NCBI RefSeq assembly: GCF_000982415.1
Contig: NZ_LANI01000021.1
Location: 62,001 to 126,000 of the forward strand
Direction of reading: 5' to 3'
From: Kiloniella litopenaei
Lineage (GTDB): Bacteria > Pseudomonadota > Alphaproteobacteria > Kiloniellales > Kiloniellaceae
Length of the DNA: 64,000 bases
The notes beneath the pieces are model-generated. The model did no database searches, had not been told where the DNA came from, and saw nothing but the letters and a program-made list of their open reading frames with translations. Below, piece by piece: positions 20,241 to 34,971 of the stretch. The position numbers and the translations under genes were made by a program. Numbering within the stretch: the first letter of the stretch is position 1; each line of letters starts with the position of its first letter.

Positions 20241-22244
20241 ATGTCATTCACGCCAGAATTTTTAGATGAACTGCGCGCACGTGTGCCGGTTTCCGGTGTG
20301 GTCGGGCGCAAGGTAAAATTGACCAAACGTGGCCGGGAATTCAGCGGCCTCTGCCCTTTTCATAATGAAAACACCCCTTCGTTCACGGTTAATGATGATA
20401 AAGGTTTTTATCATTGCTTTGGTTGCGGTGCTCATGGGGATGTCATTACCTTTGTCACCGAGACAGAGGGACTTTCTTTCCCCGAGTCTGTAGAACGTCT
20501 TGCCGAACAGGCAGGTTTGCAGGTGCCAAAAGCCAGCAAAGAAGAGGCCGAGCGGTCAAAGAAACGCGCCAGTCTTTATGATGTGATGGAAGAAGTCGCC
20601 AAGTGGTTCGAAGAGCAACTGGCGGGTGATGCAGGCAAGGAAGCGCGTGATTATGTTAATCGTCGCGGACTTAGGCCAGAGACTGTTAGCCGTTTTCGTC
20701 TTGGGTATTCCCCCAATCAACGGGGCTTGATCCGCAAAGCAATGAACGCGCGCGGGATTGACGACGAACAGTTGGTCGATGTCGGGGTGATCAAGCACAG
20801 TGATGAGGACCGACGTAAAGACGGGAATGAATACTGGGATTATTTTATCCATCGCCTGATGTTCCCGATTACTGATCGTCGTGGTCGAATTATTGCTTTT
20901 GGTGGGCGTGCGCTTGGTGACAGCAAAGCCAAGTATTTAAACTCGCCAGATACGATCCTATTTCATAAAGGCAAGATTCTTTACAATCTGGCAAACGCCC
21001 GTCAGGCGGCCCACGATCTGGGCGAAGTCATTGTGACCGAAGGTTACATGGATGTTATCGCGCTTGCCCAAGCGGGTTTCCCGTCGGCGGTTGCGCCGTT
21101 GGGCACAGCGGTAACCGAAGATCAGATACAGGAACTCTGGCGCATGGTGCCGGAACCCGTGCTGTGCCTTGATGGCGATACCGCGGGTATTCGCGCTGCG
21201 AACAGAGTGGTCGAGCGGGCTTTGCCGATCATTCAGCCCGGGAAATCCCTCAGCTTTGCAACCTTGCCCGAGGGCGAGGATCCGGACAGCCTTATCCAGA
21301 CCCAGGGCCCGGCGCAAATGCGCGAAGTTCTGCGCACAGCAAAACCCTTGTCAGAAATGCTATGGCGAAAAACCACCACAGGCGCGGATATTGAAACACC
21401 TGAACGGCGCGCGGCCCTGAAAGCGGAGTTACGCCGACAGTTCAGTGTTATCACGGATAAAGATCTAAGGTTCGAATATCAAAAAGAGATGTTCAGGCGC
21501 TTTGACGAGTTAACGGGCGTTATCAGTAAAGGCGCGGCACAACCTGCTGCTCAATCTTATGGTGGACCCAGCTATAATCAAGGGTATAACCAGGGAGGGG
21601 GTGGTTATGGTGGAAATAGCTATCAAGGCTATAACAAGCCCTTCAAGAAACAGGCCGGGCGCAAGCAGAATCGCAACCGCCAATGGGGGAAGAAGGATTC
21701 GTTTGAACTGGACCCACGGATCCCACGACCGAATTTACCCACGAGAAAATTAGCACAACGACAGGAACAGGTTTTACTGGCGACGCTGATCAATCACCCC
21801 AATGTTTTGTCCAAACAGCTAGAGGATCTGGCGAGTTTGAGGCTGCCGAGTGAAGAATATAACAGGGTGTTACAAGATCTCGTGGATGTTATTGTTCGAG
21901 ACCCAGATCTTGACAGAGAGGCACTTAAATGCCAACTCTGCGATAAGGGATATTCTCGACTAATGGATGAACTCTTGAGTCCTGCTGTTATGGATCACGG
22001 AAAATTTGCGCGACCGGCAACGGACAGCTACGCAGCTGAGCACGGTGTGACGCATATAGCGGCTATGTTCCGCGAGAAACAGGCAGAACAGGAAAAAGGT
22101 GTTCACAGTCGCGAATTTGCGGCGAATATGGATGAAACGGGATTGACTCAGCTGGAAGCGCACAAGCAACTCCGGCAAGAGGCATCTGGTATAGCTATTG
22201 ATTTGGACAGCTATGACCCGGATGCTTATGAAGACAGTCACTAA
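20241..22244 (+). CDS. dnaG: DNA primase
   Basis: I take ATG 20241 (MSFTPEFLDELR) as the start, six codons inside the longest frame, since that is the family N-terminus. The product of about 667 residues makes RNA primers at the replication fork. The CHC2 zinc-binding domain is near residues 36-62 (CPFHNENTPSF, YHCFGCGAHGD). The TOPRIM core has the catalytic Glu in VTEGYMDVIALAQ and Asp pair in LCLDGDTAGIRA. A Gly/Tyr/Asn-rich linker at about 440-475 (QGYNQGGGGYGGNSYQGY) precedes the C-terminal helicase-binding domain. It lies between yqeY and rpoD. Confidence 0.96.
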   Translation: MSFTPEFLDELRARVPVSGVVGRKVKLTKRGREFSGLCPFHNENTPSFTVNDDKGFYHCFGCGAHGDVITFVTETEGLSFPESVERLAEQAGLQVPKASKEEAERSKKRASLYDVMEEVAKWFEEQLAGDAGKEARDYVNRRGLRPETVSRFRLGYSPNQRGLIRKAMNARGIDDEQLVDVGVIKHSDEDRRKDGNEYWDYFIHRLMFPITDRRGRIIAFGGRALGDSKAKYLNSPDTILFHKGKILYNLANARQAAHDLGEVIVTEGYMDVIALAQAGFPSAVAPLGTAVTEDQIQELWRMVPEPVLCLDGDTAGIRAANRVVERALPIIQPGKSLSFATLPEGEDPDSLIQTQGPAQMREVLRTAKPLSEMLWRKTTTGADIETPERRAALKAELRRQFSVITDKDLRFEYQKEMFRRFDELTGVISKGAAQPAAQSYGGPSYNQGYNQGGGGYGGNSYQGYNKPFKKQAGRKQNRNRQWGKKDSFELDPRIPRPNLPTRKLAQRQEQVLLATLINHPNVLSKQLEDLASLRLPSEEYNRVLQDLVDVIVRDPDLDREALKCQLCDKGYSRLMDELLSPAVMDHGKFARPATDSYAAEHGVTHIAAMFREKQAEQEKGVHSREFAANMDETGLTQLEAHKQLRQEASGIAIDLDSYDPDAYEDSH

Positions 22245-22320
22245 GCGTTACGAAAGAGCACGTTGGCTAATGAGTAGAATCGGCTAGCGTGCTAAATTGC
22301 TATTTGGGGTACAAGGTTAT

Positions 22321-24330
22321 ATGGCGACCAAGGCGACCGAAACCGCTGAAAAGAGCACGGAAAATCGGGAAGAAACTTCCGACGGACCTCTAATGGATAT
22401 TACATCGGCGACCGTCAAAAAGATGATCGCGAAGGCAAAAGAAGTTGGCTATGTCACTTATGACGAGCTCAACAAGGTTTTGCCATCTGATGAGATGTCA
22501 TCCGAACAGATCGAAGACATTATGGCCCTTCTTTCCGAGATGGGTATCAATGTTGTCGAAAACGAAGAATCAGACGAAGCCGTTGACGAAGAAGCAAAAC
22601 CCGACGAAGCCGTTGTCGGGAACGTAAAGGAAGAGGACGCGGGTCGTACCGATGATCCTGTCCGGATGTATCTTCGTGAAATGGGTACGGTTGAATTGCT
22701 GTCTCGCGAAGGTGAGATTGCGATTGCAAAACGTATTGAGGCTGGTCGGGATAAAATGATTGGCGGGATTTGCGAAAGCCCGCTGACTATTCGGTCCTTG
22801 CTTCACTGGCGCGAAGGTCTGATACAGGGTGATCTTCTGCTCAGAGATATTATTGATCTGGATGCCACCTATGGCGGCGGGCCAAACGACGATGATATCG
22901 CGTTTGAAGAATCCGGTGCGGGTGACAAGACAGATGTCGAAGACGAAATCGTCAGCCAGCCGGGTGAGCAGGTTGATGATGACGATGACGACGACAAGCC
23001 TGCCCCTGCCGAAGGGGAGGAAGAGTCTGGAGAAGGTGGCGAAGATGACGGCGAAGAGAACAACATGTCTCTTGCTGCCATGGAAGAAGCATTGCTGCCG
23101 CAGGTTCTCGAGATGCTCGAAAACATTGCCAGCCATCAACAAAAGCTGAGCAAGGTTCAGGAAAAGCGCCTGACATCTCTGCTTGCTGGTGACAAGGTGC
23201 CGGATGCTGTAGAGAAAAAATACAGCAAGATGAAGCAGGAAATGATCGAGCTTATGGAAGGGGTTCATTTTAACTCTAACCGTCTTGAACAGCTTATGGA
23301 TCAGCTTTACGGCCTGAACAAAAACCTGATGTCTCAGGAAGGTAAACTTCTGCGTCTGGCTGAAAAGTCCGGTGTTGCACGTCAGGAATTCCTCGATACC
23401 TACTTTGGTAGTGAGCTTCACCCGAACTGGCTGGAAGAAATCAAAACTTACAAAGGCAAGGGTTGGGATAAGTTCGCAGAACGTTACGCGGACGACATTA
23501 CAAAAATCCGTGGCAGCATTTCCAAGGTTGCTGATGATGTTGGCCTGCCAATTCCAGAGTTCCGCAAGACTGTTAAAGTCGTGCAGACCAGTGAAAAGGA
23601 AGCCAGCCGCGCCAAGACCGAAATGGTCGAGGCCAACTTGCGTCTTGTGATCTCTATTGCCAAGAAGTACACCAACCGTGGCCTTCAGTTCCTGGATCTT
23701 ATTCAGGAAGGTAACATTGGCCTGATGAAGGCGGTGGACAAGTTCGAATACCGTCGTGGTTACAAGTTCTCGACCTATGCGACCTGGTGGATCCGTCAGG
23801 CCATTACCCGCTCTATCGCGGATCAGGCCCGGACAATCCGTATTCCGGTTCACATGATTGAAACCATCAACAAGCTGGTTCGCACCAGCCGTCAGATGCT
23901 TCATGAAATTGGCCGCGAGCCACAGCCGGAAGAATTGGCAGAACGTCTGGGCATGCCGCTTGAAAAAGTGCGCAAGGTCCTGAAGATTGCCAAGGAACCT
24001 ATTTCGCTTGAAACCCCGATCGGGGACGAGGAAGACAGCCATCTCGGTGATTTCATCGAAGATAAAAATGCTGTTATTCCGCTTGATTCTGCAATCCAGT
24101 CAAATCTGCGCGAAACCACAACCCGTGTTCTCGCCAGCTTGACCCCACGTGAAGAGCGCGTGCTCCGTATGCGCTTTGGTATTGGTATGAACACTGACCA
24201 CACTCTGGAAGAAGTTGGTCAGCAGTTCTCGGTCACACGTGAGCGTATTCGTCAGATTGAGGCGAAAGCACTGCGTAAGCTCAAGCATCCAAGTCGTTCG
24301 CGCAAACTGCGCAGCTTCCTAGATACATAA
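22321..24330 (+). CDS. rpoD: RNA polymerase primary sigma factor (sigma-70)
   Basis: I choose ATG 22321, where the product begins [12 protein letters not shown]; an AAGGT lies seven bases upstream. It has 669 residues. Region 1.1 is at about 20-90 and region 1.2 near [21 protein letters not shown]. The non-conserved region contains a very acidic insert with runs of Asp and Glu at about 210-245. Region 2 ([57 protein letters not shown], abbreviated pattern) and region 4 ([22 protein letters not shown]) are intact. It directs housekeeping transcription and is the third gene of the macromolecular-synthesis cluster. Confidence 0.98.
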
Positions 24331-24345
24331 CTATTGGAACCTGAA

Positions 24346-24828
24346 ATGGTTGATAATCCACTTCGGGAATCAGATGAAAAGCTAGAGGCGTTTTGGAAAA
24401 GCTGTTGGGACTATGTCCCGGCACAAGACCGAAACGCCTCTTTTTCGTCGTGGTTCTTTGGTGATAGTCCTGAAATGGCCGACGATCTTCTGGCTCTTGT
24501 TATGAAGGGTCAGAAAATGGCAACCTGTGGTGCGCTTTTTGATTACGAGCATGATAACGAAGATCCACCCGAAGATGGCAGTTATCATATCCTGACCGAT
24601 TTTGACGGAAACCCACGCTGTTTGATCCAGATGACATCGGTATCACGCGCTGCCTTCAAGGACGTTACCGAAGACTTTGCGCTGTCAGAGGGGGAGGGAA
24701 GCTATCAGGAGTGGCAGCAAGTTCATGAGGAATTTTTCGAACGCCGTGCTGCGGCAACTGGAAACAGCTTTACACCTGACACTTTATTGGTGCTTGAGCG
24801 TTTCAAGTTGATCTATCCAATAAAATAA
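24346..24828 (+). CDS. ASCH domain-containing protein
   Basis: A protein of 160 residues from ATG 24346; a TTG four codons earlier is possible. WFFGDSPEMADDLLALVMKGQKMATCGALFDYE and the following beta strands (PEDGSYHILTDFDGNPRCLIQMTSVSRAAFKDV) fit the ASCH fold, a PUA-like beta barrel thought to bind RNA or modified nucleotides. The C-terminal part (GEGSYQEWQQVHEEFFER) is typical of the bacterial subgroup. It starts 15 bases after the rpoD stop, so it is probably on the same transcript. Some relatives are amidohydrolases on modified cytidines, but the substrate is unknown here. Confidence 0.85.
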   Translation: MVDNPLRESDEKLEAFWKSCWDYVPAQDRNASFSSWFFGDSPEMADDLLALVMKGQKMATCGALFDYEHDNEDPPEDGSYHILTDFDGNPRCLIQMTSVSRAAFKDVTEDFALSEGEGSYQEWQQVHEEFFERRAAATGNSFTPDTLLVLERFKLIYPIK

Positions 24829-24961
24829 TACCAATAAAACATTATAGTTTCATTTGATACTTTTTCTGTGCAAAGTACAAAGACAAGAAGCCAGTTAAAA
24901 AAACGTGTCATGACGTCCGCATCAAGACGGATTTGATGTGCCGGATAATAGAGAGGTAAAG

Positions 24962-25876
24962 ATGGATATCACACTTTTGGGAACGGGATGTCCGGCGGTC
25001 CATACGGAACGCTATGGGGCGGGGCAATTGATCCGTCATTCTGGCGTCGATGGTGATACCGAAATCCTGATTGACTGTGGTTCCGGTGTGACGCAGCGCC
25101 TCGTCGGTACGGGATCATCCGGGGCCAAGCTGGATGCTATTTTGCTTACCCATCTGCACTCGGACCATGTGATTGATATCTATCAGGTTATTGTCTCTGC
25201 CTGGCATCAGGGCCGAACAACGCCGCAACGGATCTATGGCCCCACGGGGACGCGCAAGTTTGTTGAGGGATTGATGGCGGTCTGGAAAGAAGAGCTGGAC
25301 CTGCGCATCGCGCATGAAAAGCGCCCTTCGACTGCGGCGCTGGAACTGGATATTACCGAAATCAAAGCAGGCGAGCGTCTCCAGTTTGGCGAAGTGACCG
25401 TTGATATTGTTGCGGTAGATCACCAGCCGATTGATCCGGCCTTCGGTTTTGTCTTTGCTGCGCCAAAGGACGCTGGAAAGGATAAGGGAAGGGCGGCAAC
25501 CAAGATCGCACTGTCTGGTGATACCACCTATTGCCCGGCCTTGATTAAGGCAGCCAAGGGCGTTGACCTTTTGGTGCACGAGGTTTTTGTCCACCGGGAA
25601 ATGCACGTGGTCGAAGGCGTGCGTTCCGCCGAGACTATCGCCGCCGTTGCGGGCTATCACACCTTGTCAGACGAAGTGGGGAAGGTGGCAAGTGAGGCTG
25701 GTGTTGGATGTTTGCTTCTGACCCATATCGTGCCGCCAAACAGCAACCGCGATGACCTGCTTGCCGAAGTCCAGAAGTCATTCGATGGCCCCGTACTGGT
25801 TGGTGAAGACCTGATGCGAGTTGATCCGGTCAGTAAATCCGTCTCTTACGGTGCCGCTCGACTTTCCTATGCCTGA
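24962..25876 (+). CDS. MBL-fold metal-dependent hydrolase (RNase Z-like)
   Basis: I choose ATG 24962 because AGAGAGGTAAAG precedes it and the product starts MDITLLGTGCPAVHTERYG, the usual opening. The 304-residue protein has the metal-binding motif THLHSDH near residue 65, a later Asp in LSGDTTYCPAL and a final His in LLTHIVPP. Arrangement and length fit RNase Z/arylsulfatase-type members. The signature region differs from true tRNase Z, so a small-molecule esterase or sulfatase role is as likely. It is monocistronic, with tRNA genes only downstream. Confidence 0.88.
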   Translation: MDITLLGTGCPAVHTERYGAGQLIRHSGVDGDTEILIDCGSGVTQRLVGTGSSGAKLDAILLTHLHSDHVIDIYQVIVSAWHQGRTTPQRIYGPTGTRKFVEGLMAVWKEELDLRIAHEKRPSTAALELDITEIKAGERLQFGEVTVDIVAVDHQPIDPAFGFVFAAPKDAGKDKGRAATKIALSGDTTYCPALIKAAKGVDLLVHEVFVHREMHVVEGVRSAETIAAVAGYHTLSDEVGKVASEAGVGCLLLTHIVPPNSNRDDLLAEVQKSFDGPVLVGEDLMRVDPVSKSVSYGAARLSYA

Positions 25877-26061
25877 TACACTGCGTGTACCATTTTGTTT
25901 ATAGGCGTGTATGATGCAAAGAGTGATATCCATCGTCGGTTATTAGGCTCAATATTTGATAGGTAAAATTATCAAGTCGAAAATTTTAATGATTATGTTC
26001 CAGAATCGAACATTTAACACTTGAAGATTCCGAGCGCCTGAGCAACATTAGGCGCTCAAGT

Positions 26062-26138
26062 GGGCCTGTAGTTCAGTTGGTTAGAACCCTCCGCTCATAA
26101 CGGAGATGTCGCAGGTTCAAGTCCTGCCGGGCCCACCA
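26062..26138 (+). tRNA. tRNA with CAT anticodon (probably Ile2, lysidine-modified; Met possible)
   Basis: The 77-base cloverleaf folds fully: acceptor GGGCCTG / CGGGCCC, D-arm GTTC / GAAC, anticodon stem CTCCG / CGGAG with loop CTCATAA, variable loop ATGTC, T-arm GCAGG / CCTGC and an encoded CCA. The acceptor GGGCCTG is more like isoleucine than elongator methionine tRNAs of this group. A CAT anticodon on such a body usually means Ile2, read as AUA after lysidine modification by TilS. The D-arm is unusual in having T-A pairs where GCTC/GAGC is typical, with both sides changed together. Confidence 0.95.
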
Positions 26139-26186
26139 ATTTTCTGTTATATTTATTGATGACTATGGCTCATTAATTTCGATGTT

Positions 26187-29132
26187 TTACGCGACTACGG
26201 ACAGGATTTTCTTTACCTGAAAACTTGTACCTTTTTTATCTGGCGTGATTTCTACATCCAATTTTTGGTTTAATTGAATTTGATCTCTTTTATCTTCTGG
26301 AAAAACTGATACGTGAAAAAATGCAGTTCTCGCATTGCCATCTAGTTTGACAAACCCATATCCTCGTTCAGGAAATAGTCTTATTATTTGACATTTTACG
26401 CTCTCAACTTTGGCAGAATCTATTTCTATATCATGTATTTTTTGAATGAAGATACCTTTTGGTCCGCGAGCTAAATCACATAATATGCCGTCTCCATCAC
26501 TCAACGATTTGATTCCATGTTCTTGTAACTTTTCAGCATGAATAAATATCCTGGAATCAATGCCTTCAACTTCTGTAAAACCAAATCCTTTTGAAGCATC
26601 ATAATAATCGACAACGGCAATCACACCGCTTTTTACAATACCTTCTTTATATTCTTCTCCAAGGGTCGCCACTAAGTCATTATCAACAGGCGATTGAAGG
26701 AATTTATTTAAATTATTTATTAGTTCTATTTGGCAATTGTATTGAGGAAGTTCCACTCCGATTGAAAAATGTTGATGATCTTCTGCAATTAGATAATCAA
26801 GAAACATACTTCTAATTGCCTCAACTTTTTGTGGGAATGGAGTTTGGGCTTTGTATGCACTGTTTATTTTTAATGAAGTATCTTCATCTACAATCGCTGT
26901 AGTTAAAGCCATTTGGTAGAAAAAAACGCTGTTATGAGAGGCGAGTCTAAGGTGAACCATTCCACGGTATGAAATTGCGAGTTTTTGTTTTACAGATAGT
27001 TCTCTATTTGAGACGTCGTATGGTTCAATCAAATTGGCTTCAAGCATAGATGCAAGAGCTTTTTCAACTGCCGATTCTGAACATCCAATTGCATCAAAGT
27101 AATCAATTAAAGATTGTAGATCGAGATGTTTTTCATCAACGGAGCGGCTGTTTTTGTGAATTGAACTCAATAGGGTTAATATTCTGAGATTCAATAAAGG
27201 AGATTGCCTGATTTCACTGTCAACTTGGAATATCGGGTAAATTTCATGATTGTCACCCTGTTTATAAGCATCGTAATCACCTTTCATGAGAGCATCCATG
27301 AATTTAGTGAAGTTTGTTGTAACAGGCTCGTCGTTTAAATAAGATTTAATTAGGTCTTCAATCTTAATAACTGAAGAGGTTATTACTCTCTGTGATAATA
27401 ATAATGTTCTTCTTATGTTATAATTTGTCAGTTCTCCAATTGTTTTTGAAGTGTAGTCATGATCAACAAAAACATTTTCTAGTACTTGAGCAAATCCATC
27501 AAGATTATCAATTGAAATTTTTATACCTTTACTAGAAAAATATCCTTTTTTCTCTTTCTTTTGAAATTTATCTTCTGCAAGCTTTTGTTTTAAAAAATCG
27601 ATACGTTTTCTGAAAACTTCTCTAGGGGAGGGAGTGGGTAGAAAAAATGATCTAGATTTATAAATGCCAAAGAGGTCTGTTTTTGAAAATGACCAAGCTG
27701 ATTTGTCTGTTACGGGAAAAATAACAAGACAGTGATTCGTATGTCTTCTTAGTGCTTGTGTAAATTGAAATATTTTTTGTTTATACTCTGCTGAGAATTC
27801 ATCAATATTGTCCACCAATATAATTGGAAGCATTTTCCTATTTTTTACGACATCATCAAGAACACGCTTTAAGTATCCTTCTCGATCTCCTTCGACTTGG
27901 CTATCCAAATACTGCCCAAATTTTTCTTTAAAACGCTCTTTGTCTTTATCGTATAGCTGTGCATCAACGCCCTTTGAGCGCCTTAAATATTCTCCATGAT
28001 ACAGACCTAATAAATCGTCCCAGCTTGGTGAAGCATCTGGGTATGTCGCTTTTTCTAATTCGGAAATAAGGCGCTCTGTTATCCACTCTAAAGCTGTATC
28101 TTCTCTACCTGTTGCATCTAAACAGTTTACACGAGCTAGAACACATCTTTTTCGTATGGGGTTGGTGAGAGTTTTTTTGAAAAATCGATCTAAGAATGTT
28201 GTTTTTCCCGCGCCAGTTGGTCCTACAATAAATATTGTTTGTCCTGATTCTGATGGTGATACTTCGACCTCAACATTTGATTTTATTAAGTTGGTAAGTT
28301 CTATATCAACATTCTTTTCTGATGGTGTGATATTTCCTAATATGCTTGTTGTCATTTTCTCTAAGGAGAAATCTGCAATTCGGCTTTCTCTGGTCTCAAC
28401 AAAGCATTCAATTAGTAAATTCTCGTCTTCATCGCCAGTTAGCCTTGAAAAAAAACTTGAAAAAACTCGATCTAAGTCAAATGCAATTTCTGATTTATGA
28501 GAAAGTTGTATATCTTCCTTTTCTAGGGGGGCTTTTAAATCTTGAGACAACAATAGTCTTTTATTGTGAATTTGGTCAAAAAGCGAATTATATATCTTTT
28601 TACAAAACTGCTGTTTTGAAAGTAGATCATAAAATTCAGAAAAATCAGAAAGCACAGCTTCTAAACTTGGAAAAACAATAGCTTCTTTTAATTGGTAATT
28701 TTCTCCGGGTACAAATGTTTTAAATATGATCCAAGTTATACCGTCAGTTAGAACTGCAATAGGAAAGCCGTTGGGGGTTGAGTAACTCGCAGCTTGATGG
28801 ATACCTTGTGAAGCTTTTTTTAAACTTGATCCAGAAATTTTTAGATACTTTACTTTGTCTTTTTCTGCTGTTGCTACATCTATTATGCCAATACGTTTGG
28901 CCTCGATAAGTAGTAAAGGTGTTTCATTATCGCTTAGTATGTAATCGGAATATCCATTATCGTGTTTACGTTCAGTTCTGAAGTCTTGATAGGACCAACC
29001 AAGGCATTCATTTAAAAATCGATTGATAATTTTAATTTTAGCGTCTTCTTCAGATATAATCTCGTTTAGATTTTCTTTTATATCTGTTATGATTTCGAAA
29101 GCTTTTTCTTCTGCTACGTCTAGTGTCCCCAT
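26187..29132 (-). CDS. PD-(D/E)XK nuclease-like, P-loop NTPase and double cold-shock-domain fusion protein
   Basis: I prefer ATG 29132 (MGTLDVAEEKAFEI), giving 981 residues; a TTG at 29198 would add 22. Residues about 30-80 resemble the HsdR-type restriction nuclease N-domain: SDYIL (Asp63), ten residues later IEAK (Glu77, Lys79). Walker A GPTGAGKT is at 304-311 and Walker B PIILVDNIDEF at about 436-446, a STAND/AAA-like NTPase. A winged-helix-like part follows at about 645-705. The C-terminus has two cold-shock domains (835-904, with KGFGF and RIFIH; 912-980, with RGYGFV and AFFHV). The gene is much more AT-rich than its neighbours, uses unlike codons and lies 48 bases past the tRNA. Function is inferred: a single-gene defence candidate. 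Confidence 0.75.
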   Translation of the reverse strand: MGTLDVAEEKAFEIITDIKENLNEIISEEDAKIKIINRFLNECLGWSYQDFRTERKHDNGYSDYILSDNETPLLLIEAKRIGIIDVATAEKDKVKYLKISGSSLKKASQGIHQAASYSTPNGFPIAVLTDGITWIIFKTFVPGENYQLKEAIVFPSLEAVLSDFSEFYDLLSKQQFCKKIYNSLFDQIHNKRLLLSQDLKAPLEKEDIQLSHKSEIAFDLDRVFSSFFSRLTGDEDENLLIECFVETRESRIADFSLEKMTTSILGNITPSEKNVDIELTNLIKSNVEVEVSPSESGQTIFIVGPTGAGKTTFLDRFFKKTLTNPIRKRCVLARVNCLDATGREDTALEWITERLISELEKATYPDASPSWDDLLGLYHGEYLRRSKGVDAQLYDKDKERFKEKFGQYLDSQVEGDREGYLKRVLDDVVKNRKMLPIILVDNIDEFSAEYKQKIFQFTQALRRHTNHCLVIFPVTDKSAWSFSKTDLFGIYKSRSFFLPTPSPREVFRKRIDFLKQKLAEDKFQKKEKKGYFSSKGIKISIDNLDGFAQVLENVFVDHDYTSKTIGELTNYNIRRTLLLSQRVITSSVIKIEDLIKSYLNDEPVTTNFTKFMDALMKGDYDAYKQGDNHEIYPIFQVDSEIRQSPLLNLRILTLLSSIHKNSRSVDEKHLDLQSLIDYFDAIGCSESAVEKALASMLEANLIEPYDVSNRELSVKQKLAISYRGMVHLRLASHNSVFFYQMALTTAIVDEDTSLKINSAYKAQTPFPQKVEAIRSMFLDYLIAEDHQHFSIGVELPQYNCQIELINNLNKFLQSPVDNDLVATLGEEYKEGIVKSGVIAVVDYYDASKGFGFTEVEGIDSRIFIHAEKLQEHGIKSLSDGDGILCDLARGPKGIFIQKIHDIEIDSAKVESVKCQIIRLFPERGYGFVKLDGNARTAFFHVSVFPEDKRDQIQLNQKLDVEITPDKKGTSFQVKKILSVVA

Positions 29133-29297
29133 CGTATTATCCAAAAATGTTTCAATGTTTTTAAAGCTTATGGCTTTATAGTAGCTATAAATTTTCAATT
29201 TATTCTAGAGAAAATTTAATCTTATGTTAGAAATATAATATCAAATAATTGCTAATAGTTGCTTTTTGGGGGAAGTGATTAGATTGAATTAAATTAT

Positions 29298-29939
29298 CTA
29301 TTTCCGCGCCACAATAAACATTGAATGGCTCTTTTCCGGTTCCCATGAGCTGATGATGTCAAAGCCTGCGTTGGTGATGCTTTTTTCCAGATGTTTGGCA
29401 GAGAAGAATTTTACCAGTGGCATAAATCCGAAGAGTCTGCCGATGGGGACAATCAGCTGCAGGAACCTCATCATTCCGGTCAGGCAGACGGTGCTGCTGA
29501 TGAAATAGCCGCTGGGTTTGAGCATTTTATGGATGTTGGCGATGGTGGCTTCTTTGTCTTCGAGCAGATGAAGAACGCTGTGGGTCATGATAATGTCATA
29601 GGATTGATCCGGGACACTGAAAGTATCAATGGCCGCCTGATCAAAGGTGACGTTCGTGATGTTCTGTTGTTTTGCTTTGTCCTGTGCGATTTCAAGCATA
29701 TTTTCCGAGATATCAACAGCGCGGATATGCTTGACAAAGGGCGCGTGAATAAGGGCTGTTGTGCCTGTGCCGCAGCCAAGTTCCAGAACTTCCATGTCCG
29801 GCGTGAAGTAGCTTTGTGTGATCTCAAGCTTCTTTTCATAGGCGGCCTGATTAGAGACGGGAGATTTCGAATAGCGAGCTGCCATTTTATTCCAAAATTT
29901 CGCCGAGGGTGCTTCTCTTGATGATGTGGTCATATTCAT
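29298..29939 (-). CDS. Class I SAM-dependent methyltransferase
   Basis: The frame is open to 30026 but I place the start at 29939 (MNMTTSSREAP) because the added N-terminal text lacks family match; an ATG two codons later is another choice. The 213-residue product has motif I VLELGCGTGTTAL (residues about 56-68), AVDISENMLEIAQDKA and the later YDIIMTHSVLHLLEDKE, the Rossmann-fold methyltransferase pattern. The C-terminus has a short hydrophobic segment (MRFLQLIVPIGRLFGFMP) that may touch a membrane or lipid. The substrate is unknown. A perfect 18-bp palindrome lies in the upstream divergent region. Confidence 0.85.
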   Translation of the reverse strand: MNMTTSSREAPSAKFWNKMAARYSKSPVSNQAAYEKKLEITQSYFTPDMEVLELGCGTGTTALIHAPFVKHIRAVDISENMLEIAQDKAKQQNITNVTFDQAAIDTFSVPDQSYDIIMTHSVLHLLEDKEATIANIHKMLKPSGYFISSTVCLTGMMRFLQLIVPIGRLFGFMPLVKFFSAKHLEKSITNAGFDIISSWEPEKSHSMFIVARK

Positions 29940-30036
29940 TTCTCTGGTTGCTCTGTTAATCACGTATCGGGTTTCTGCACTTTGATGAAACGCTTCAATG
30001 AGAGGGTGCTCGTACTGTGATCGCATTTAATGGTGG

Positions 30037-30054
30037 AGTCAAATATATTTGACT
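30037..30054. promoter_or_regulatory. 18-bp perfect palindrome, probable operator
   Basis: AGTCAAATATATTTGACT is its own reverse complement. It lies between the divergent methyltransferase and membrane-protein/XRE genes, about 100 bases from each start, a typical place for a dimeric repressor. Confidence 0.6.
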
Positions 30055-30152
30055 TTGAGTATGATTTACTTGATATTGTGTCGTGAAAATAAGACCCGCA
30101 GAAATAAGACGGGGAAATGTAATTGGCCCTTTAACCAAATGACAGGAAGATA

Positions 30153-30608
30153 GTGGCAATGTCACAACAGGAAAGAAGAGTTGGTGTTTCTCTATTAACC
30201 ACGATGATTATGTTTGGGGTGTTTGGTTTTTATATGTTCGGCCTCTATCAGGACGGGGCAATGGACGGGCCGGATAGTTATCGTTTGATCGGGAAAAGTT
30301 TCTTTGTTCTTGTGGGCGGTGGTATTGTGGTTAGCATTGTGGTGCATATCCTCTTTACCATTATTCATTCGATCATCACCAAAGACTATGAACCCATGAT
30401 GAATGACGAACGGGACAAGCTGTTCGACCTGAAGTCCATGCAAATTATTCTGCTGGTTTTCAGTTTTGGCTTTATGGTGTCCATGGGTATTTTGGCATTG
30501 GATATTCTGGCCCCTTCGCTGGTTTTCCTGTTGATTATTTTCTCCATGTTTATCGCCAACGTCATTGGTGATCTGGTTAAGCTGTTCCTCTACCGCGGTG
30601 GCATTTAA
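30153..30608 (+). CDS. Four-helix membrane protein, DUF2178-like
   Basis: A protein of 151 residues with four hydrophobic helices at about 13-31, 45-68, 100-118 and 122-145, and a cytoplasmic loop NDERDKLFDLKSMQI between the second and third. That loop (NDERD near the middle) is what one sees in DUF2178-type proteins that are usually encoded just before a small XRE regulator. The next gene is such a regulator, starting 16 bases later, so the pair should be one operon. Exact biochemical role unknown; the protein may be the regulator's membrane partner. Confidence 0.7.
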   Translation: MAMSQQERRVGVSLLTTMIMFGVFGFYMFGLYQDGAMDGPDSYRLIGKSFFVLVGGGIVVSIVVHILFTIIHSIITKDYEPMMNDERDKLFDLKSMQIILLVFSFGFMVSMGILALDILAPSLVFLLIIFSMFIANVIGDLVKLFLYRGGI

Positions 30609-30624
30609 AATGGTCAAAAGAGAG

Positions 30625-30843
30625 ATGATGAAAGGCAAGATTACCAATAACATTCGCCGATTACGTTTTGACCACGATGAAATGACGCAAAAACAACTGG
30701 CAGAAAAAACCGGGGTATCCCGGCAAACGATTGTGGCGATTGAAAAGGCAAAATATTCTCCGTCGCTAGAACTGGCCTTTCAAATCGCCCATGTATTTGG
30801 TTGTTCGCTGGGGGATGTTTTTTCCTATGAGATTACTGAATAG
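30625..30843 (+). CDS. Small XRE-family transcriptional regulator
   Basis: About 72 residues, starting at MMKGKITNNIRRLRF; the start could be 30610 (MVKRE) or 30628. The whole protein is one Cro/CI-type helix-turn-helix: MTQKQLAEKTGVSRQTIVAIEKAKYSPSLELAFQIAHVFGCSLGDVF. This is the YozG-like subgroup, which lacks an effector domain and is commonly paired with a DUF2178-type membrane protein, as here. The 18-bp palindrome upstream of the pair is a candidate binding site, so autoregulation is plausible but not shown. Confidence 0.9.
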   Translation: MMKGKITNNIRRLRFDHDEMTQKQLAEKTGVSRQTIVAIEKAKYSPSLELAFQIAHVFGCSLGDVFSYEITE

Positions 30844-30900
30844 TTTACTCTCAAAGGGGCTATTCCTTTATTAGGGAAAACGAACTCTTCGTTTCGCATA

Positions 30901-30936
30901 AAAAAAGACGGCTCACCCTTTTGAAGGCGAGCCGTA
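30901..30936 (-). terminator. Intrinsic terminator of the ADH-cupin-OYE-VOC operon
   Basis: ACGGCTCGCC and GGGTGAGCCGT form a long stem with one mismatch; on the minus strand it is followed by CTTTTTTT. It ends the four-gene minus-strand operon. Confidence 0.9.
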
Positions 30937-30967
30937 AGAGGCAGGTCAAACTGAATTTTCGTGTGAT

Positions 30968-31978
30968 CTAGAAACCTTCCAGCACAATTTTTCCCTTCAC
31001 ATTGCCGGCTTCAATCAAGGCATGGCTTTTTCGAATGTTCTGGGCATTGATGGGGGAGAGAATATCCGAAACGGTGGTTCGGATATGTCCGGCATCAATC
31101 TCTTTGGCGACGTGGTTTAGCAGCTTGTGTTGCTCGATCATGTCGGGGGTATTGTGCATGGCACGGGCGAACATGAATTCCCAGTGCAGGCTGGCAGCCT
31201 TCATTTTCATTCCGGCCATGGGCATTGGTTTGTCCGTATCGTCAATAGTGACAATACCGCCTTGGGGACGAATGAGCTCTACGGCTGTTTCCCAATGGCG
31301 CATGTCGTTGAAGATGGCAATGTGATCGACATGTTCCATGCCAAGGGCGCGCACCTGTTGAACCATATCTTCGCGGTGATTAACGACGTGATTGGCGCCA
31401 AGTTCTTTGACCCAGGATGTGGTTTCCGGGCGAGAGGCCGTTGCGATCACTTTCAAACCTGCGCGTTTGGCAAGCTGAATACCGATAGAGCCGACACCGC
31501 CCCCGGCACCAATGATAAGAATACTCTCACCTTTGTTTGCGCCGTTGATATCAAGGGAGAGGCGATCAAAAAACGCTTCATAGGCGGTGATTGTGGTCAG
31601 GGGAAGGGCAGCAGCCTGAGCGTGAGAAAGCGATTTGGGCTTGTGTCCGACAATGCGCTCATCAACCAGTTGAAATTCGGCATTGGTACCTGATCTGGTG
31701 ATATCCCCGGCGTAATAAACCTCGTCACCAACCTTGAATAACGTGACATCTTCACCAACAGCTTCAACGACACCACTGGCATCATAGCCAATGACACGCG
31801 GGGTTTCTTCGACTGTATCCTTGGGGGCACGTACTTTGGTGTCAACCGGGTTCACGGCAACCGCCTTGACCGAGACAAGGATATCTCGGCCCGTTGGTGT
31901 TGGCTTTTCAAGATCGGCATCAAAGAATGAATTGGGATCTTCGATGGGAAGGTAACGGGTTAAAGCAACAGCTTTCAT
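30968..31978 (-). CDS. Zinc-type alcohol dehydrogenase / quinone oxidoreductase family protein
   Basis: I start at ATG 31978 (MKAVALTRYLPIED) because the longer frame adds 35 residues without family match. The 336-residue product is a medium-chain dehydrogenase: N-terminal GroES-like domain (VAVNPVDTKVRAP, VIGYDASGVVEAVGEDV), then a Rossmann domain with ILIIGAGGGVGSIGIQLAKRAG. No zinc-ligand Cys/His set is visible, which points to quinone oxidoreductase-type enone reductases. It is the last gene of an operon with a cupin, an OYE-family reductase and a VOC protein, so a role in reducing reactive enones or quinones is likely. Confidence 0.88.
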   Translation of the reverse strand: MKAVALTRYLPIEDPNSFFDADLEKPTPTGRDILVSVKAVAVNPVDTKVRAPKDTVEETPRVIGYDASGVVEAVGEDVTLFKVGDEVYYAGDITRSGTNAEFQLVDERIVGHKPKSLSHAQAAALPLTTITAYEAFFDRLSLDINGANKGESILIIGAGGGVGSIGIQLAKRAGLKVIATASRPETTSWVKELGANHVVNHREDMVQQVRALGMEHVDHIAIFNDMRHWETAVELIRPQGGIVTIDDTDKPMPMAGMKMKAASLHWEFMFARAMHNTPDMIEQHKLLNHVAKEIDAGHIRTTVSDILSPINAQNIRKSHALIEAGNVKGKIVLEGF

Positions 31979-31997
31979 TTTGTGTTTCCTTTGCAGG

Positions 31998-32414
31998 TTA
32001 TCTGTTTTTGATTGTGTCAAAGTGTCGGGTTGCGTCCGAAGTGACAGGGTGATCAACAGGGGAATGGAACTCGACAGTGACAAAAATCAGTGGTGTATTT
32101 CCGTTATTGGTCAGATCGTGCACAAATCCGCTTTCGGGGGTGAGATCAGGGAAATGCTGGGTGTCTCCGGCTTTGTATGTAACGGCCACTTCTCTACCAT
32201 CGTCAAAGCGGGATAGCCCTTTACCGTCGGTCATAACCGTCCAGAAATAAGGACGGTCATGACGATGGGGCGCAATGGTGTCGCCGGGATCCAGCCGCAG
32301 ATGCCAAATGGTCATATCATCGGTATCGAGAACACGTTCTGTACCAATGTTACCATTCTGCCAGCCGGCTTGAATTTCCTTGGGTGTTAGAGTTTCGCCA
32401 GTGGATAAGGTCAT
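31998..32414 (-). CDS. Cupin-domain protein
   Basis: I start at ATG 32414 (MTLSTGETLT), which overlaps the OYE stop codon by four bases (ATGA), showing translational coupling. The 138-residue product is a small beta barrel: LRLDPGDTIAPHRHDRPYFWTVMTDG carries the first cupin motif (H-x-H, then further down Glu/Gly), and PESGFVHDLTNNGNTPLIFVTVEF the second. The metal-binding pattern is only partly conserved (PHRHDRPY). It may bind a small molecule rather than catalyse; the operon suggests a role alongside OYE in electrophile handling. Confidence 0.8.
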   Translation of the reverse strand: MTLSTGETLTPKEIQAGWQNGNIGTERVLDTDDMTIWHLRLDPGDTIAPHRHDRPYFWTVMTDGKGLSRFDDGREVAVTYKAGDTQHFPDLTPESGFVHDLTNNGNTPLIFVTVEFHSPVDHPVTSDATRHFDTIKNR

Positions 32415-33514
32415 GATGCCTCTTTCCATGCGGGGTAATCGCTATAGCCCTTTTCTGTGCCGCCAAAGAGCGTGCTTCCGTCAAAGTCCGCGAGAGGGAG
32501 GTTGTTGGCAAAACGATGCGGTAAATCCGGGTTGGCGATGAAGGGGCGACCATAGGCAATGACATCAGCCAAACCATCAGCGATAATTTGTTCGCCGCGC
32601 TCTTTGGTGTATTTTCCGGCAACGATAATCTTGCCGGAATAGCACGCGCGCAGATCGTGGCGAAACTGGACCGGCACCTGCGGGGCATCGTCCCAATCCG
32701 CTTCGGACAGATGGATATAGGTCAATCCTATACGGTTGAGCTCTTTCGCAGATTTGAGGATAACATCAATAATTTCCTCGTCAGCCATATTGCGCTGGGT
32801 GATGTAGGGTGACAAGCGAATACCTGTGCGTTCGGCACCTATTTCATTCGCAATCGCTTCGGCTACTTCGACCAGAAAACGAATACGATTTTCCTGTGAA
32901 CCACCGTATTCATCTGTGCGTTGGTTTGATGAACGGCGCAGGAATTGATCAATCAGGTATCCATTGGCACCGTGAATTTCGACACCGTCAAAACCCGCGG
33001 CGATGGCATTGGCTGCGGCTTGTCGGAAGTCGTTGACGATGGCTTTGATCTCGTGCTTTTCCAATGCGCGGGGGATCGGGCAATCAACCATGTTTCCTTC
33101 GCCAGTAGCCGGGTCAACAACCCAGACCTGTGCATCAGGTGACAAGGCCGAAGGGGCAACAGGTTTACCGTCGGCATGAAAACTTTCGTGGCTCATACGC
33201 CCGACGTGCCATAGTTGCAGAAAAATTCTGCCATCCTTTTTGTGAACGGCATTGGTTACAAGTTTCCAGCCGTCTATGTGTTCGTCAGAGAAAATGCCCG
33301 GCGTGAAGGAGTATCCCTGACCTTGCTGAGAAATTTGGGTCGCTTCGCTGATGATCAGTCCCGCAGATGCCCTTTGTGCGTAATATTCGGCCATGCGGGC
33401 GTTGGGAATGTTGCCGGGCTGAGTTGTCCGTGCGCGGGTCATGGGCGACATGGCAATCCGGTTTGGTAAATTTGCCGGGCCAAGTGAAAGCGGTTGGAAC
33501 AGAGAGCTGGTCAT
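32411..33514 (-). CDS. Old yellow enzyme family flavin reductase (alkene reductase, NemA-like)
   Basis: A protein of 367 residues, full TIM-barrel length. Hallmarks are the opening LFQPLSLGPANLPNRIAMSPMTRAR, LQLWHVGRMSH, the catalytic VEIHGANGYLIDQFLRRSSNQRTDEYGGS with its His/Asn pair, and a later FIANPDLPHRFANNLPL. It binds FMN and reduces enones, nitro compounds or maleimides with NAD(P)H. It is second in an operon between a VOC protein and a cupin, under a divergently transcribed LysR regulator, like other electrophile-response loci. Confidence 0.95.
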   Translation of the reverse strand: MTSSLFQPLSLGPANLPNRIAMSPMTRARTTQPGNIPNARMAEYYAQRASAGLIISEATQISQQGQGYSFTPGIFSDEHIDGWKLVTNAVHKKDGRIFLQLWHVGRMSHESFHADGKPVAPSALSPDAQVWVVDPATGEGNMVDCPIPRALEKHEIKAIVNDFRQAAANAIAAGFDGVEIHGANGYLIDQFLRRSSNQRTDEYGGSQENRIRFLVEVAEAIANEIGAERTGIRLSPYITQRNMADEEIIDVILKSAKELNRIGLTYIHLSEADWDDAPQVPVQFRHDLRACYSGKIIVAGKYTKERGEQIIADGLADVIAYGRPFIANPDLPHRFANNLPLADFDGSTLFGGTEKGYSDYPAWKEAS

Positions 33515-33519
33515 AGTGA

Positions 33520-33945
33520 TTATCCTTGTTCTTTATGAGGGCGTTTTTCATCGGGGGCGTGATCCGTAAAATCAGAAGCAGCGGCTGCGAATACGGCTTC
33601 GAGAAGAGGGCCGCAGGGCGTGCGAAAGAAAAGCCGTCTTTCTTTGATTTCAGGAAGATCCATACAGCTGTAACGGATACCCAGGGTGTGGAGCTTTTCC
33701 TTGAATTTCTGGTAATCGTGTAATCGAAAAGCAACGTGGTCAAAAGCTTCGGCAGCGCAGTCGATACCATGACCTTGTGAGCCGATCAGATGCACGATCG
33801 GCTGATCATTTGAATAGAGCCAGTGACCGGGAATACGTTTAATTGTCTGGGGACGGTCGTGTTCTTCCAAATCAAAAAGACTGATAAAGAAGTCACGTGT
33901 GACCGCAAGATTCCGTGTGCGTATGGTGACATGATCGAGTTGCAT
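33520..33945 (-). CDS. VOC-family (glyoxalase-like) protein
   Basis: A protein of 141 residues with two beta-alpha-beta-beta-beta repeats. MQLDHVTIRTRNLAVTRDFFISLFDLEEHDRP opens the first and FDHVAFRLHDYQKFKEKLHTLGIRY the second; conserved His6, His and a terminal Glu (GPLLEAVF) could bind a metal. The fold is shared by glyoxalase I, ring-cleavage dioxygenases and fosfomycin-resistance proteins, and nothing here tells them apart. It is the first gene of the OYE operon, five bases before it and divergent from the LysR gene. Confidence 0.9.
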   Translation of the reverse strand: MQLDHVTIRTRNLAVTRDFFISLFDLEEHDRPQTIKRIPGHWLYSNDQPIVHLIGSQGHGIDCAAEAFDHVAFRLHDYQKFKEKLHTLGIRYSCMDLPEIKERRLFFRTPCGPLLEAVFAAAASDFTDHAPDEKRPHKEQG

Positions 33946-33964
33946 AAGAGGCTTTTCCTTTCGT

Positions 33965-34001
33965 GATTATCAGATAGCACTTGCTATGGCGCCTGATAAT
34001 T
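33965..34001. promoter_or_regulatory. Nested inverted repeats between LysR and VOC genes
   Basis: GATTATCAG (33965-33973) and CTGATAATT (33993-34001) pair at eight of nine positions, and inside them ATAGC / GCTAT (33974-33978, 33983-33987) form a second short repeat. The site lies in the 114-bp divergent region, 20 bases from the VOC start, and is a probable binding site for the adjacent LysR protein. Confidence 0.5.
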
Positions 34002-34059
34002 GTGCAAAATTCGAAATGATATTTTGGAAAATCCGAATAATGAATGAGGCAGTGGCAAT

Positions 34060-34971
34060 ATGGATTTGGATAATCTGACGCTGTTTTTGCGTATTGTGGA
34101 AAAGGGGGGAATGGCTGCTGCCGGACGTGAACTCGGTTTGTCCCCGGCAAGCGTTTCCGAGCGTCTTGCTGCGCTGGAAGTATATTACGGTGCGAGCCTT
34201 TTGACGCGGACCACACGCTCTATCAGTCTGACCGATGAAGGGCGTGAACTGGTTTCGGGTGCTCGACGTATTTTGGCCGAAGCAGATGAAGTTCAATCAC
34301 GTATCAGGCTTGGCGTGGAAAAGATTTCAGGCACAATTCATATCAGTGCGCCGATTGATCTGGGGTACAATCGCATTGTGCCGCTGCTGGACAATTTTAT
34401 GGAACAACACCCCGAAATCAGTATCAATCTGACCCTGACGGATGGATATGTTGATCTTGTCGGGCAAGGACTTGATTTTGCGTTACGTCTCGGGGTTCTG
34501 GCAGACAGCTCTCTGCGCATCAAAAAGCTGGGGGATAACAGGCGTGTGGTCTGTGCCTCACCTGATTATCTTGAGAAAAACGGCACCCCGGGCCATCCCG
34601 ATGATTTGATCCATCACAACTGTATCTTAATGAGGTTTGGCAATCAGGTAGATCACGCATGGCGCTTTGCCGTGGCGGGACGGGAAAAGAAGTACTTTGT
34701 CCGTGGAAACCGTACGGTGAACGATGGCCATTTGGTCCGGATCTGGTGCCGTGCCGGGCATGGACTGGCGTTAAAATCTATCTGGGATATTCAGGATGAT
34801 CTAAAATCTGGTGCTTTGGTGCCGGTTCTGGAAGAATTTGCAGCTATTCCGGCTGGACTTCAGATTGTTTACCCCGATGGGGCAATCCAGCCCCGCCGTG
34901 TTCGTCTTTTGATTGATCATCTCGCGCGATGGTTTGCAAATAATCAGGTGACATTACCAGAGACAGGTTAG
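34060..34971 (+). CDS. LysR-family transcriptional regulator of the OYE operon
   Basis: A protein of 303 residues. The N-terminal winged helix has MAAAGRELGLSPASVSERLAALE, then the effector domain (GTIHISAPIDLGYNRIVPLLDNFMEQHPEISINLTLTDG, abbreviated). The style is that of the AaeR/DsdC-like 'GxIHISAP' group, which often control a neighbouring oxidoreductase operon. It is transcribed away from the VOC-OYE-cupin-ADH operon with inverted repeats between, so control of that operon is the simple reading. The inducer may be an enone, quinone or related electrophile. Confidence 0.92.
   Translation: MDLDNLTLFLRIVEKGGMAAAGRELGLSPASVSERLAALEVYYGASLLTRTTRSISLTDEGRELVSGARRILAEADEVQSRIRLGVEKISGTIHISAPIDLGYNRIVPLLDNFMEQHPEISINLTLTDGYVDLVGQGLDFALRLGVLADSSLRIKKLGDNRRVVCASPDYLEKNGTPGHPDDLIHHNCILMRFGNQVDHAWRFAVAGREKKYFVRGNRTVNDGHLVRIWCRAGHGLALKSIWDIQDDLKSGALVPVLEEFAAIPAGLQIVYPDGAIQPRRVRLLIDHLARWFANNQVTLPETG

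Follow-up and report, generated by a model that had tools for sequence, protein, structure and literature searches.

A low-GC nuclease-ATPase gene with tandem cold-shock domains beside a tRNA-Met gene in Kiloniella litopenaei, a candidate mobile defence protein

Locus and domain architecture

The window analysed here is a 64,000-nucleotide stretch of the alphaproteobacterium Kiloniella litopenaei (contig NZ_LANI01000021.1, positions 62,001 to 126,000). On its minus strand, at 26187-29132, lies a candidate defence gene whose 981-residue product is predicted to join a restriction-type nuclease, an AAA+ ATPase, a helical/winged region and two cold-shock domains (CSDs) on a single chain. The list of open reading frames (ORFs) for the window gives this minus-strand frame as 26187-29198 with a TTG start (1003 aa). 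Translation from the ATG at 29132 yields the 981-residue protein, and homologue alignments begin at about this ATG and span the protein end to end. An earlier note, made from the letters alone, had read all of its named motifs in one frame, and the Walker A, Walker B and CSD motifs are indeed located in the 981-residue protein, for which a Pfam scan returned 18 matches at E up to 1.

Residues 1-200 (28533-29132) are predicted to form an HsdR-type PD-(D/E)XK nuclease domain. The domain has the N-terminal HsdR fold and resembles HsdR and type IIG enzymes, while the Pfam HSDR_N score of 25.3 bits lies barely above the cut-off of 25.1. The earlier note, which had made its idea depend on a nuclease fold at the N-terminus, was thus right about the domain and almost right about its signature: SDYIL (residues 62-66) and IEAK (residues 76-79) are both present, with a spacer of nine residues and not ten. 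Conservation was assessed in a family alignment (A3) of 55 rows, comprising the window protein and 54 of the 59 loci found, from which five truncated or broken loci (L051, L084, L100, L101 and L102) were omitted. The full D...ExK plus QxxxY active site is invariant in all 55 members, with D63 at 28944-28946, E77-A78-K79 at 28896-28904, and Q113 and Y117 of Q113-x3-Y117 at 28782-28796, which we take to be the QxxxY element of HsdR/RecB-type nucleases; E28 and E54 are equally invariant.

The P-loop region, at about residues 296-500 (27633-28247), is a predicted ORC/Cdc6-like AAA+ ATPase. Its Pfam AAA_22 match scores 37.3 bits against a cut-off of 27, and in structure alignment (VIA-align) its fold comes closest to ORC/Cdc6 and TnsC, with the NLR and CED-4 folds slightly lower. 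Invariant residues include G304, G307, G309 and K310 of the Walker A motif GPTGAGKT (residues 304-311, 28200-28223) and D441, N442 and D444 of the Walker B motif ILVDNIDEF (residues 438-446, 27795-27821), and together with the AAA_22 match they confirm the P-loop NTPase of the earlier note. Asn442 presumably occupies the site where ORC-type AAA+ proteins usually carry Glu. Because an invariant Asn replaces this residue after the Walker B Asp, we suggest that hydrolysis is slow and that the ATPase works as an ATP-bound switch, not as a translocating motor. The secondary structure of the predicted model places the ATPase lid and a helical/winged-helix-like region at about residues 544-735 (26928-27503), and some archaeal ORC alignments extend to residues 808-810, at an rmsd of 8.9-10.3. 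R510, N570 and R574 are also invariant in A3. Sequence searches for solved relatives found mainly CSD and P-loop pieces with the single sequence, and P-loop pieces among the matches listed with the profile.

The two C-terminal CSDs that the earlier note had recognised are matched by Pfam CSD (PF00313) in two stretches, at 50.8 bits against a cut-off of 27, and both RNP1 and RNP2 motifs are present. The first domain covers about residues 831-905 (26418-26642), with KGFGF at 848 and RIFIH at 861, and the second about residues 908-981 (26190-26411), with RGYGFV at 923 and AFFHV at 937. The pair was compared in an alignment of 20 CSD rows (A4), in which viral-contig loci L103 and L104 are identical in protein. 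In the second domain the aromatic positions 925 (Y/F) and 927 (Phe) are kept in 20/20 rows. The first domain keeps Gly851 in 20/20 rows, and its aromatic positions are less well kept (position 850 in 17/20, position 852 as F/Y in 19/20). The RNP2 histidine is found in 15/20 rows in the second domain (position 940) and in 8/20 in the first. The second CSD therefore appears to be the better preserved binding surface of the pair. CSDs are known to bind single strands, and those of the window protein plausibly bind single-stranded DNA (ssDNA) or RNA.

A variable slot beside tRNA-Met

The gene is the one large ORF of a variable slot at 26139-29297, which justifies its earlier description as a single-gene island. 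The slot is bordered on one side by a plus-strand tRNA-Met (CAT) gene, placed by ARAGORN at 26062-26138, so that 48 bases separate the tRNA from the stop codon of the convergent nuclease-ATPase gene, exactly the distance given before. On the other side lies a minus-strand methyltransferase-like gene (29298-30026, assigned by reading), which aligns in six of the seven congener regions with this tRNA-Met; the contig of the seventh ends before it. The GC content of the nuclease-ATPase gene is 0.342, compared with 0.471 outside the slot, and the TTG-start frame (GC 0.34) is the lowest of the 29 tiled window ORFs of at least 250 aa, the next being at 0.452. A scan for promoters and terminators gave no excess above shuffled sequence.

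Seven congener regions were compared, in one of which the contig ends at the slot. Measured from the end of the tRNA-side alignment to the start of the methyltransferase-side alignment, the slot is empty (53 bp) in one of the remaining six and holds other cargo of 904, 1289, 2097, 2289 and 4391 bp in the other five. Because of the low GC content, and because the slot is empty or otherwise filled in congeners, we conclude from sequence comparison that the gene was acquired in the window genome. Its distribution in the genus is patchy as well. A whole-protein relative is present in two of nine genomes, the window's own and one of eight congeners, where it has 33% identity and lies at a different locus, which is not the pattern of a vertically inherited core gene that would have spoken against the earlier note. 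That note had tied acquisition to the tRNA: acquisition stands, and the tRNA as the integration route is unsupported, with no copy of the tRNA 3' end found above shuffled background in six slots. No integrase was recognised by eye among the slot ORFs, seven of which were also scanned. Among the scanned cargo proteins, one from genome G289 (L129:2398-4125) is a 575-aa T5orf172 protein with domain matches to PADLOC PDC-S57 and PD-Lambda-1, and the remaining ones are metabolic or regulatory in appearance or lack any match. The slot is thus a place of gene exchange and not a proven defence site.

Two further differences between congeners were observed nearby. In G292 the slot contains, next to the conserved methyltransferase-like gene, an additional SAM methyltransferase gene (L128:4844-5485). 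A segment of about 4 kb (30843-34967 in the window) is absent at the matching place in G292 and G289 and largely kept in G295, marking a second indel region near the slot.

Relatives and their mobile carriage

Searching genome and viral contigs with the single sequence confirmed no relatives; a query built from an alignment found 55 genome loci and four viral-contig loci, and a wider query added three viral contigs (L155-L157) that stand outside the alignment. The family was sought with a CSD-bearing query, so CSD fractions refer to the members found. Rows without a CSD are 787-836 residues long. For the tree of the common core, 22 rows were labelled as CSD-bearing, namely the 20 rows of A4 plus L095 and L096, picked by motifs, length and match range. 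Eighteen rows with two CSDs form one clade (100/100) in which Alpha- and Gammaproteobacteria are mixed. Overall the CSD label needs two changes, the second being in two Planctomycetota, and the placement of L061 and L062 is not resolved. In the phylum sample only the window's own genome scored at E 1e-60 (1/398), a lower bound, with two candidates per genome scored among the matches listed. A class-wide count of 186/289 genomes was not used, being mostly CSD-only among the matches listed; among these, core matches beyond the window's own genome occur only in G035, as two pieces on two contigs.

Relatives are usually compositional outliers where they occur. With broken copies and near-copies counted, their GC content is below that of the flanks in 53/56 loci with enough flank, and at the 53 loci where three or more neighbouring ORFs reach 200 aa, the relative has the lowest GC content among ORFs of this size in 43. 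A plasmid search matched 47 records, in seven of which the match spans 80% or more of the query. Among the CSD-bearing plasmids examined, one is typed as conjugative and one as mobilizable. On an Acinetobacter plasmid (L035:10001-14123) ISAba1 interrupts the relative, and tet(X3) and sul2 lie in the same region; on a Rhizobium plasmid (L037:10001-12861) a frameshift splits it.

The most informative settings are in Escherichia coli, where DNA searches with two viral-contig copies, which would miss more diverged relatives, found the gene in 12 of 5,426 genomes. In seven of these it is a 2931-bp gene with copies 99.6-100% alike, and the one prophage copy compared shares 56% protein identity with the window protein. 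All seven lie in P2-like prophages between the portal protein (gpQ) and the replication endonuclease (gpA), a position that the window gene itself does not share. In the other five genomes the copy adjoins guaA in an element with an integrase, repC, trbJ and trbL (5/5), and the one compared shares 46% protein identity with the window protein. The E. coli C2 copy lies at 527171-530101 on the minus strand of NZ_CP010117.1. The copy on IMG/VR contig L103 is identical to it in DNA, and L104 encodes the same protein; because of this identity neither is independent of the E. coli evidence. On viral contig L105 the copy lies between the tail-completion and baseplate genes of a phage, which we take to be the Z/fun cargo site of P2-type phages.

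Predicted role and comparison with known systems

The protein is a candidate of a known kind, a single-protein defence of nuclease-NTPase type, with weak PADLOC 2.0.0 matches. The best matches of the window protein are mad8 (9.6e-5) and mad3 (8.6e-4), both in the P-loop region. The model matched most often across the 55 members is mad8, in 36 of them (best 2.1e-6); for single CSDs the match is CSD_V (best 3.7e-11). Among seven distant homologues without CSDs, five have no match at E 0.001 and two match weakly and only in part (PDC-M28C 2.5e-4, DrmMI 7.6e-6). The likeness to Mad3/Mad8 of MADS is weak and confined to the NTPase region; control genes match mad3 far better (5.3e-57). HsdR of type I restriction enzymes (3h1t, EcoR124I) carries an SF2 helicase motor where the window protein has an AAA+ core and a CSD tail, and no helicase family is found among the Pfam matches. 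No HsdM or HsdS was recognised on reading the ORFs at 22000-34000. An Avs-like or STAND assignment, suggested by the earlier note, is not supported. Avs proteins likewise carry a nuclease, an NTPase and a C-terminal extension on one chain, the extension consisting of TPR-like sensor repeats. In contrast, the ATPase here is best matched by the ORC/Cdc6 fold and the C-terminus consists of CSDs. The Pfam matches include no TPR family, of which weak matches may be filtered, and those listed for PADLOC include no Avs-named model. GmrSD type IV restriction is marked by a DUF262-type GmrS domain, and no such family is present among the Pfam matches.

Closer parallels for the joining of CSDs to nuclease systems come from multi-gene loci. 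In the excerpts of PMC11090510 used here, CoCoNuT type IV restriction is a nuclease system, with RNA as its proposed target, in which an AAA-type NTPase is joined to CSD-like OB folds, a domain combination shared with the window protein. CoCoNuT is encoded by several genes, among them a McrB-type GTPase, CnuB (with an N-terminal CSD in type I), and a separate McrC-type CnuC. Here a single gene encodes nuclease and ORC-like ATPase on one chain with C-terminal CSDs, and the Pfam matches include no McrB-type family. TOTE/TALON conflict systems also link a CSD protein to a nuclease-containing system, in an operon with a TPR-CSD fusion and a TATA-binding protein according to the portion of PMC12458937 consulted; neither was seen at this locus. 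NTP-dependent conflict systems of multicellular prokaryotes are listed with restriction-endonuclease-fold and CSD/OB-fold parts as well, yet these are multi-component, vWA-MoxR-type systems, and the present fusion is not described in the sections of PMC7159879 that treat them. No publication naming the nuclease-AAA+-CSD set was found among the literature matches listed; the supplementary tables of PMC9122126, outside the search, may list it.

A role in defence is likely for this gene, and an ATP-switched nuclease is a reasonably probable prediction of its activity. As a whole explanation we favour, with somewhat better than even confidence, a defence that consists of one protein, moves horizontally and acts against phages and/or plasmids. 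The strongest functional evidence, itself positional, is the genomic setting of relatives in the P2-like site and the guaA-site element. The defence role put forward in the earlier note gains support because the E. coli relatives occupy a described anti-phage hotspot, the site between gpA and gpQ being reported to hold anti-phage systems in the excerpts of PMC9122126 considered. The protein would rest inactive until infection exposes ssDNA or RNA. This nucleic acid would be bound by the winged region and by the CSDs, the second of them being the likelier to do so, and ligand binding would drive ATP-dependent assembly of the AAA+ cores and bring the nuclease domains together. The nuclease could then cut DNA, so that the invader is stopped or the cell killed. 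We infer such ligand-driven licensing because ORC, TnsC and resistosome-type ATPases are known to assemble in this way. That the CSDs are the trigger is a tentative proposal, a little short of even. A still more specific version, in which the tandem CSDs directly sense single-stranded invader mRNA or ssDNA and the ORC/Cdc6-like part forms a ring or filament that turns on the HsdR-type nuclease, is doubtful.

Several results weigh against the favoured explanation. The earlier note had proposed enrichment of homologues in defence islands as a check, and PADLOC neighbour scans gave no such enrichment over controls. The nearest ORFs, up to three per side, of 19 two-CSD loci (98 ORFs, with L103 and L104 as near-copies) matched 20 models, each in one protein and including IetA, IetS and PDC-M54A. 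For the control, 19 Alphaproteobacteria regions supplied 114 ORFs; the first 98 of these, which cover 17 regions, matched 23 models, with mad3 in six proteins, AriA in four, and PDC-S06 also present. Only one of seven scanned congener slot cargo proteins has a defence-like domain match, and P2-like hotspots hold non-defence cargo as well, as stated in the same excerpts of PMC9122126. No match was found among 50,697 phage records in a protein search, or in a DNA search with the L103 query. Among the seven plasmid copies, an insertion sequence interrupts one, a frameshift disrupts another, and the Robbsia copy stops short of the CSD part. Some members, among them the E. coli prophage copy, have a degraded first CSD, and a CSD match (E 0.01) is found in only 22 of the 55 members, so the core does not depend on a CSD. 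For the same reason we regard the CSDs as an addition to a shared nuclease-ATPase core. An obligatory CSD sensor is weakened accordingly, and because 33/55 members were found without a CSD match, an added recognition or anchoring module is more likely than a sole sensor.

The members that lack CSDs also fit a type IV-like restriction enzyme, in which the ORC-like core and winged region would load on double-stranded DNA and read its structure or modification, the CSDs only adding affinity. Its best ATPase folds, ORC/Cdc6 and TnsC, are known to assemble on DNA, and its nuclease resembles those of HsdR and type IIG enzymes. However, 18 two-CSD rows from Alpha- and Gammaproteobacteria form a well supported clade with RNP1 aromatics mostly kept, for which reason selection appears to act on the CSDs of that clade, and we hold this alternative to be possible with less than even confidence. 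Single-strand binding by CSDs would also suit a protein that protects the mobile element carrying it: the CSDs would bind the incoming strand, the nuclease would cut competing plasmids or ssDNA in conjugative transfer, and phages would not be the main target. Carriage on plasmids, one conjugative and one mobilizable among them, and on the E. coli mobile element agrees with such exclusion, which is nevertheless unlikely in view of the P2-like prophage copies at a described anti-phage hotspot.

Those prophage copies bear on two further explanations. CSDs occur in cold-response proteins, and most of the scanned congener slot cargo is metabolic, regulatory or unknown in appearance, so the protein might be a DNA repair or cold-response nuclease travelling as accessory cargo. 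Its rarity and patchiness in the genus and the phylum sample, together with repeated carriage in the prophage hotspot and on mobile elements, make this improbable. Least probable of all is a selfish restriction-like or toxin gene retained through addiction rather than benefit. In its favour, plasmids and prophages carry a lone gene with a nuclease domain, and the guaA-site copies are followed immediately by a small annotated gene. Against it, the roughly 400 bp upstream of the P2-like prophage copies contain no annotated gene, and downstream there is none, or one small hypothetical gene, before the replication gene; no partner gene common to the P2-like and guaA settings was noticed.

As a candidate defence, the gene points to a mobile nuclease-ATPase family that is weakly matched by the 2023 PADLOC library and of which one clade carries two RNA/ssDNA-binding domains. 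Because a 56%-identical relative occupies the E. coli P2-like hotspot, a laboratory strain can be used to test the idea. Should the CSDs act as the trigger, the protein would offer a simple example of immunity in which one chain reads single-stranded nucleic acid, and a tandem-CSD receptor would be an innate sensor assembled from replication-initiator and RNA-chaperone parts.

Individual loci show other genes of interest near relatives. At L049 a subtilase gene and an AAA gene adjoin the relative, in line with the IetS and IetA matches among the neighbours. On Paracoccus sediminicola plasmid p1 a 1201-aa protein beside a CSD-less core homologue (L041:834-4436) matches PADLOC Tmn at 7.6e-78, and on plasmid pSC52_2 HsdR and N-6 DNA methylase genes lie 3-7 kb from the relative. 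Elsewhere in the window, a 490-aa mechanical ORF on the minus strand (22570-24042) runs antisense to an rpoD-like gene (22297-24330) and is probably a chance frame.

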